From: Chitinispirillaceae bacterium
GTDB lineage: Bacteria > Fibrobacterota > Chitinivibrionia > Chitinivibrionales > Chitinispirillaceae
Direction: 5' to 3'
NCBI GenBank assembly: GCA_016929595.1
Contig: JAFGIN010000149.1
Location: 1-41,109 of the forward strand
DNA length: 41,109 bases
Positions 39,081 through 40,736 of this stretch are shown here, piece after piece; positions within the stretch are counted from its first letter, which is position 1; each line of letters opens with the position of its first letter. The position numbers and the translations under genes were made by a program. The notes under the pieces were generated by a model, which was given only the letters and a program-made list of their open reading frames with translations, had not been told where the DNA came from and did not search any database.

Positions 39081-39413
39081 CGTGAGAGATCCATCCGGAA
39101 AAAAGACTCAGCTTGATGAATTAGTAATTCTATAAACTGTTAGAATAGTTGTAACTCTATCCAGAACAATAACTAATTACATCAATTGTATTGTTTTTTA
39201 CTGGCAATTACTACATATTTTTCGTTTAAAGAGATAGGATACCAATACATTTCATCCATTCAAAAAAATAAAAAAAATGCAGTTTTGTGATGACTGTCAC
39301 ATCGCTGTTTAAATTTTTACAGTATTTTTTCATGAAAGCAGTTAAAAATTCTTTGCTATATAAAGAACTTGTTGCCGAAAGAAGAAATATGGATACCGTA
39401 GTCTGTAAGGATA

Positions 39414-39484
39414 TGGACGCCCGAGGCGATTTAGTGTGGGTTGGCGAGTTTAGTGGTACGTCGTAATAGCAGTGATCCCACACT
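39414..39484 (+). repeat. Putative pseudoknot-forming element, copy 1
   Basis: TGGACGCC (39414-39421) is followed by AGTGTGGG (39433-39440), GTCGTAAT (39460-39467) and CCCACACT (39477-39484). The 8-nt arms pair exactly. GACG (39416-39419) can also pair with CGTC (39459-39462), interleaved with the first stem as in an H-type pseudoknot. The same four blocks recur in the same order in copy 2, with the arm-to-arm length exactly 52 nt in both. Confidence 0.5.
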
Positions 39485-39489
39485 TTGAA

Positions 39490-39670
39490 GCTTTTGATGT
39501 CGCCGGAAGGTGACGATATATATTATTGTATATTAAACTTTGTATATTTCATATTTTGTCCCTCTGGGACATGGATTTTCAGGTGCAGCTATAAGCAAGG
39601 TCTGAATGCAGGTTAAAATCAGGGCATTTAATGATAAACTCTCCCGGTGTGTAGCCCTGAGAATTTTTTA
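39490..39670 (+). ncRNA. Possible small RNA region with hairpins and a terminator-like end
   Basis: Three hairpins lie in order. GTCGCC-GGAA-GGTGAC (39499-39514) has a GNRA-type loop. TGTCCC-TCT-GGGACA spans 39557-39571. TCAGGGC (39619-39625) pairs with GCCCTGA (39654-39660), followed by T6 (39664-39669), which resembles a Rho-independent terminator. There is no convincing protein frame. A transcribed RNA is inference only. Confidence 0.3.
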
Positions 39671-39748
39671 AAGTCACGGATAAAAGTGATTGATCGAAAA
39701 AACAATTGTTATGACCATGTTCTGTGAGGCTGATGTTTTATTGCGAAG

Positions 39749-39812
39749 TGGACGCCTGTAAGTGTGGGTTCACCATTCTTTCGGCGTCGTAATGTCCTTT
39801 CAAACCCACACT
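39749..39812 (+). repeat. Putative pseudoknot-forming element, copy 2
   Basis: TGGACGCC (39749-39756), AGTGTGGGTT (39761-39770), GGCGTCGTAAT (39783-39793) and AACCCACACT (39803-39812). GACGCC pairs with GGCGTC over 6 nt, and AGTGTGGGTT with AACCCACACT over 10 nt. The two stems interleave, the layout of an H-type pseudoknot. Between the blocks the two copies differ in sequence, which suggests that structure, not just recent duplication, has been kept. Confidence 0.5.
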
Positions 39813-39838
39813 CCTCTGCTTTGCAGTCCATATGTTTT

Positions 39839-40354: not shown

Positions 40355-40681
40355 ATGGCATCAGATAAAAGTTTTGTTGATTTCATACTCGATCAGATCG
40401 AAGATGCCGGAGTTATTACTTGTAGAAAAATGTTTGGAGAGTATGCTGTTTATTCGAATGGAAAAGTAGTAGCTTTAATATGCGATAATCAGCTTTTCAT
40501 AAAACAAACGAATGGTGGCAGGGCATTCATTGGAGAGGTAAAGGAAGCGCCTGCGTATCCGGGAGCAAAAATGAATTTTCTTATCGGTGATAAAATCGAA
40601 GATCGTGAATGGCTCAGTGAACTGATACGTATAACAGAACGGGAGCTACCTGAGGTGAAGAAAAAGGTTAGAAAATTATGA
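40355..40681 (+). CDS. TfoX N-terminal domain protein
   Basis: 108 residues, with AAAAGGAG 6 nt before the ATG. The single domain 'FVDFILDQIEDAGVITCRKM', 'FGEYAVYSNGKVVALICDNQ', 'LFIKQTNGGRAFIG' and 'APAYPGAKMNFLIGD' is the TfoX/Sxy amino-terminal domain (PF04993). The TfoX C-terminal domain is absent, as in many free-standing members. Full-length TfoX promotes competence in gamma-proteobacteria; stand-alone N-domain proteins have no firm role, so competence should not be assumed. It is isolated from other genes, with long non-coding DNA on both sides. Confidence 0.92.
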   Translation: MASDKSFVDFILDQIEDAGVITCRKMFGEYAVYSNGKVVALICDNQLFIKQTNGGRAFIGEVKEAPAYPGAKMNFLIGDKIEDREWLSELIRITERELPEVKKKVRKL

Positions 40682-40736
40682 ATTATAAATTATAAATTAT
40701 AAATTATAAATTATGAATGGTGAATTATGAATGAAA
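40681..40736 (+). repeat. AATTATA/AATTATG heptamer tandem repeat
   Basis: Starting at the last base of the TfoX-like stop codon: four AATTATA units, then AATTATG, AATGGTG, AATTATG and a partial unit. It is the same heptamer family as at 12851-12885, again directly after a stop codon and in the same sense as the gene. Confidence 0.75.

Follow-up and report, generated by a model that had tools for sequence, protein, structure and literature searches.

The duplicated element at 39411-39833 of the window, by which we mean the whole stretch of 41,109 nucleotides analysed, most probably (at a rough probability of 0.8) belongs to a family of small, non-coding and non-autonomous mobile DNA repeats of the REP, TIR-dimer or MITE kind, present in about 40 copies. 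The repeat family is new as a family, and its kind is already known. Its copies are numerous and dispersed, with sharp ends and unrelated flanks; their stems carry compensatory changes, and some copies form composite pairs with homologous inner sequence. This would be a well-defined family of small mobile repeats in the Fibrobacterota, where no such family was found described, and its subtypes, covarying hairpins and paired ends make it usable for tracing mobilisation and for seeking the enzyme. Searching the whole genome also made it possible to tell a real repeat family apart from a pseudoknot that had been over-interpreted.

A preliminary description of this DNA had reported two direct copies of an element with interleaved stems. 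The four short blocks shared by the copies, their spacing of 328 nt and the arm-to-arm length of 52 nt in both copies were read in the sequence as claimed there (Table 1). The duplication is far above chance: BLAST with copy 1 matched the genome at 14 further sites (identity of 77-97%, best E 7e-31), the same search with copy 2 revealed 11 (best E 1e-13), and covariance model R1 extended the family further, as given below. The direct arrangement proved to be wrong, since it is the reverse complement of copy 2 that aligns with the whole family; copy 1 lies on the plus strand, its partner on the minus strand, and the pair in the window is accordingly inverted, tail to tail. The copies had looked direct because the unit is quasi-palindromic, and TGGACGCC in copy 2 corresponds to the reverse complement of the atypical 3′ tail of that copy, not to a 5′ block. 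The likeness of copy 1 to other c1 copies runs on in the alignment to about position 39515.

Table 1. Features of the two repeat copies, and of the pair that they form, in the window.
Feature	Position	Strand	Basis
Shared block TGGACGCC	39414-39421 and 39749-39756		read from sequence
Shared block AGTGTGGG	39433-39440 and 39761-39768		read from sequence
Shared block GTCGTAAT	39460-39467 and 39786-39793		read from sequence
Shared block CCCACACT	39477-39484 and 39805-39812		read from sequence
Repeat copy 1, c1 subtype	39411..39504	+	model R1, 89 bits, E 1.3e-18; family alignments
Copy 1 small 5′ hairpin, GCC-CGA-GGC	39419..39427	+	sequence; equivalents in other copies
Copy 1 main hairpin, AGTGTGGG (39433-39440) / CCCACACT (39477-39484), loop 36 nt	39433..39484	+	paired across copies
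Repeat copy 2, c2 subtype	39742..39833	-	model R1, 87.9 bits, E 2.6e-18
Copy 2 main hairpin, AGTGTGGGTT (39761-39770) / AACCCACACT (39803-39812)	39761..39812	-	sequence
Copy 2 small 5′ hairpin, CTGC-AAA-GCAG (minus strand)	39816..39826	-	sequence
Composite of the two copies, tail to tail, 423 bp, with outer ends ATATGGAC...GTCCATAT	39411..39833	.	model matches and pair comparison

Architecture and distribution of the repeat family

The host genome is a fragmented 6.6-Mb metagenome-assembled genome of the Fibrobacterota (Chitinispirillia), estimated to be 95% complete. Its TypA, encoded on contig C92 (locus L061), shares 76-81% identity with sequences from Chitinispirillia and 'Fibrobacter sp.' metagenome-assembled genomes. 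A covariance-model search of this genome and of the phylum, as the preliminary description had proposed, was carried out with model R1, built from 19 copies; it recovered 39 copies here at E<1e-3, on both strands and on about 28 contigs, and a few divergent ones were found in the order with models R2 and R3. The unit is about 93-120 bp long and consists of a small 5′ hairpin followed by a long one, in the consensus order (T)TATGGAC, small hairpin, AGTGTGGG, 36 nt, CCCACACT and TTGAGGC...TGTCGCC. The 5′ end is TATGGAC, and the 3′ ends are mostly TCGCC, with GTCGTC in some copies. Two subtypes were distinguished, a left-type c1 and a right-type c2 (GTGGGGG), which differ in their inner extensions; several c1-type copies carry an additional 28-nt hairpin after GCCCGAGGC. 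At its 3′ end (39498-39515), copy 1 also has a hairpin resembling a terminator, TGTCGCC-GGAA-GGTGACG, with an AT-rich run after it; three such sites lie in the region, against 0.8 in shuffles.

The copies are intergenic, lie on either strand and in all orientations of the neighbouring genes, and some are placed just 3′ of genes. Only a few ORFs extend across copies, and at about 90-110 aa they are short and appear to be spurious. Neighbouring genes are diverse and share no family, the flanking DNA is unrelated between copies, and similarity ends sharply at the element boundaries. Two copies, at loci L036 (G000:C150) and L045 (G000:C93), are adjoined by a different dispersed sequence, about 130 bp long and inverted (85% identity), which is a second repeat family of the genome.

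Under strict filters, R1 gave no match in 60 relatives and none in 167 other genomes of the phylum, and an exact-pattern scan of named genomes gave 0 matches. Divergent copies were found within the bacterial family with models R2 and R3: five in G014 (best E 4e-13), one in G007 (7.5e-4) and one in G016 (1.5e-8), where the R3 scores for G014 and G016 are raised by construction, as that model was built partly from the copies of these two genomes. The independent R2 scores per genome were E 7.6e-4 and 5e-3 for G014 and 0.01 for G016. Among 40 genomes searched in the order, one copy was found in G032 (0.006 per genome), with ends TTATGGACCGCACAAGCGGAGAGGTGTGGGG...CCCCACACC; by eye it looks genuine, a judgement we offer tentatively. 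Matches to viral, phage and plasmid sequences in the search for homologues were at chance level. The divergent copy at locus L160 (G016:C140) is adjoined upstream by a long palindrome, GTGTGGTAGTAAA...TTTACTACCACACT.

Stem covariation and its interpretation

The 8-bp main stem (AGTGTGGG/CCCACACT) is 95-96% paired across copies, and the copy alignment revealed compensatory changes at four of its base pairs. The change AGTATGGG/CCCATACT is found in copies C49 and C51, AGTGTTGG/CCAACACT in C150, with its close relative C101 half-way, and GGTGTGGG/CCCACACC in C34 and C156, which belong to two different subtypes; in the GTGGGGG copies a U-A pair is exchanged for G-U. The small 5′ hairpin shows compensatory exchanges as well, in the variants CCGC-AAAA-GCGG, CTGC-AGA-GCAG, TCGC-AGG-GCGA and GCC-CGA-GGC. 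The loop of the main hairpin measures 36 nt in most copies, with 33 and 37 nt also occurring. No shuffle reached the covariation score of the main stem, and a partner slid by one column scores similarly; the shuffle controls contain related copies, so that the covariation is to be taken as support and not as proof.

Covariation and a fixed loop length, together with the exchanges in the 5′ hairpin and the position of some copies just 3′ of genes, would also be expected of a structured RNA family, regulatory or trans-acting, in which the hairpin is the functional fold and the copies were amplified as RNA genes. We consider this quite unlikely: a hairpin in single-stranded DNA predicts the covariation equally, the element gave 0 Rfam matches both at the gathering threshold and at E up to 1, promoter-like sites near copies are at chance level, and the copies occur on both strands beside unrelated genes and are patchy between related genomes. 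The preliminary description had gone further and proposed an H-type pseudoknot RNA. GACGCC/GGCGTC is indeed present in copy 2, where it interleaves with the main stem, but the helix is completely formed in that copy only; over 19 copies 49% of the cells are paired, a level that shuffles match. What stood of that proposal is a repeated family of structured elements with a covarying main stem; the conserved interleaved helix did not, and a pseudoknot RNA is extremely improbable. An alternative pairing between loop and tail, GCGAC/GTCGC, was rejected: judged by eye it suits some c2 copies, but it is broken in the GTGGGGG subtype.

That the copies might be fragments of protein-coding genes, a possibility raised in the preliminary description, has some apparent basis in reading frames: 20 of 33 copies leave one reverse frame (RHxxxxSVGSxxxRRRxxLxNPHxxLLxSI) open vs about 10 in shuffles, forward frame 0 is open in 17 of 33 vs about 6.5, and there are the short ORFs mentioned above. 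This openness is probably an effect of shared sequence, because the copies are not independent. Loop lengths of 33, 36 and 37 nt and one-base indels disrupt the frame, many copies contain stops, and neither a Pfam match, even at E 10, nor a tblastn match to plasmids was obtained, so that the coding reading is very improbable. Integron attC sites were considered and discarded as well; the copies are not in cassette arrays, and the end motifs and orientation that we take to be those of attC do not match the element.

The reading we favour is a non-autonomous mobile repeat whose stem would be kept paired by selection for recognition. A hairpin kept both for DNA mobilisation and for an RNA function, either as a regulatory RNA or as a 3′-end structure of preceding genes, is an unlikely extension of it; if true, the double-hairpin fold of a mobile repeat of the Chitinispirillales would also work once transcribed.

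Paired units and candidate mobilising enzymes

Most copies are single, without a partner on the tail side, and that side is no richer in partner ends than the head side. Tail-to-tail pairs were found at the window locus, C2 (423 bp), and at C90 (352 bp), C156 (385 bp), C155 (676 bp) and, truncated, C110; head-to-head pairs occur at C88 and C223. The ends of the composites, ATATGGAC...GTCCATAT, resemble terminal inverted repeats and are absent in single copies; inverted ends, TTATGGACC...GGTTCATAT, are also present at G032:C68. C90 and C156 carry one and the same composite in opposite orientation, with a c1-type end, a GTGGGGG-type end and matching inner extensions. In G014 there are two pairs whose spacers are homologous, and the pairs align with each other at 77% over 271 bp. 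The intergenic regions G014 C118 and G007 C4 are orthologous, with flanks 74% and 80% identical; one unit is present in both, and the second unit and the spacer are seen only in G014, the interval lengths being similar (273 and 263 bp). Repeats of the CTCCCCTCGCC...GGGGTGAGG type were noted in composite spacers or beside c1-type copies at L233 (C27), L053 (C156) and L058 (C155).

The composite in the window is probably a mobile unit, the alternative being that two ends have come to lie side by side. Mobility itself, the class of the enzyme and the unit that moves we infer along the following lines. Units would exist singly or tail to tail, with paired TATGGAC ends acting as terminal inverted repeats, and in a pair one unit may form the left end and the other the right end of a MITE-like composite of roughly 285-676 bp. 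The folded or inverted ends would be recognised by an enzyme acting in trans, which would put copies into intergenic DNA; candidates are an HUH/Y1 transposase of the hairpin-recognising kind (RAYT or TIRYT) and a DDE transposase working on the ends. MITEs of the Correia, RUP and ERIC kind have a TA target and a link to IS630; in the studied family TA precedes the T/G-GG start in 30 of the 39 copies, which would fit an IS630-type DDE enzyme without showing one.

A variant of this mobile-repeat explanation, not exclusive of it, is that the copies are solitary long ends of a larger autonomous transposon (an IS or a TIRYT-like element) missing from the genome or unassembled. The tail-to-tail pairing of left-type c1 with right-type c2 (GTGGGGG) copies, with their differing inner extensions, speaks for it, as does the location of several copies near contig ends; we regard it as possible, if doubtful, given that the stretches between tail-to-tail copies showed no transposase on inspection of their ORFs; in the 10.4-kb interval at C220 in particular, no transposase-like ORF, Y1 included, was seen.

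More generally, the search for a transposase between or beside copies found none. The genome carries genes for four Y1 transposases, and such genes are numerous across the bacterial family. The element is absent from about 50 Y1 loci examined in its own genome and in the family, an absence that is not final, given a fragmented genome of 95% completeness and a survey that covered part of the Y1 loci. A systematic scan for target-site duplications gave no signal for 3-9 bp. The search for a clean empty site yielded none, rsmI and its neighbour not being adjacent in G007.

Relation to known repeat systems

The terminal inverted repeats (TIRs) of TIRYTs or TIRtrons are moderately abundant, in some cases self-complementary, form REP-like dimers and are found in few genomes (Di Nocera et al. 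2013, PMC3733652). The studied family shares with them self-complementary repeats that occur as dimers and singly. TIRYT repeats are defined by the Y1 transposase gene that they flank (PMC3733652), and in contrast no Y1 gene examined is flanked by the studied element. REPs, in turn, are 20-40 bp long and carry a GTAG or CGTC tag (PMC3733652). Like REPs, BIMEs and REPINs, the studied repeat is dispersed, extragenic and hairpin-forming, with inverted dimers, compensatory stem changes and a patchy occurrence between species; unlike REPs, it has a unit that spans about 93 nt and contains two hairpins, with a loop of 36 nt, outside the size and tag of that group. It also differs from the REP/RAYT system in its position, beside none of the Y1 loci examined, and the RAYT at C179 has repeats of its own.

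Correia/NEMIS, RUP and ERIC (RU) are small TA-flanked MITEs (reviewed in PMC2229807). The resemblance to them, drawn from description and not from alignment, lies in intergenic non-autonomous repeats of about 100 bp with strong secondary structure, in tens of copies and with TA adjoining an inverted terminus; unlike them, the studied family shows inverted ends only when paired. By analogy, it may work like REP/REPIN, TIRYT-type TIRs or Correia/RUP/ERIC-type MITEs (PMC3733652, PMC2817692, PMC2229807). We assigned it to none of the REP/REPIN, TIRYT and MITE groups because the tag, the size or the flanking transposase by which they are recognised is lacking or open.

Two RAYT-type loci with repeats of their own were observed in the course of this comparison. 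At L064 (G000:C179), positions 120-760 and 1340-1500, a RAYT-type Y1 gene lies amid REP-like palindromes, GTAGGTTGGGTTA...TAACCCAACCTAC, and the GTAGGTTGGGTTA palindromes are unrelated to the studied repeat. At L063 (G000:C137) a second RAYT-like gene is flanked by short palindromes of the GGGGTCGGACC type (about 100-120, 1325-1380 and 2260-2280). The window also contains, at 40673-40731, immediately after the TfoX_N gene, a tandem AT-rich minisatellite with a unit of about 14 nt (AAATTATAAATTAT), and a AATTTATAATTTATAATTT run at about 310-336 of locus L061, on another contig, resembles it.
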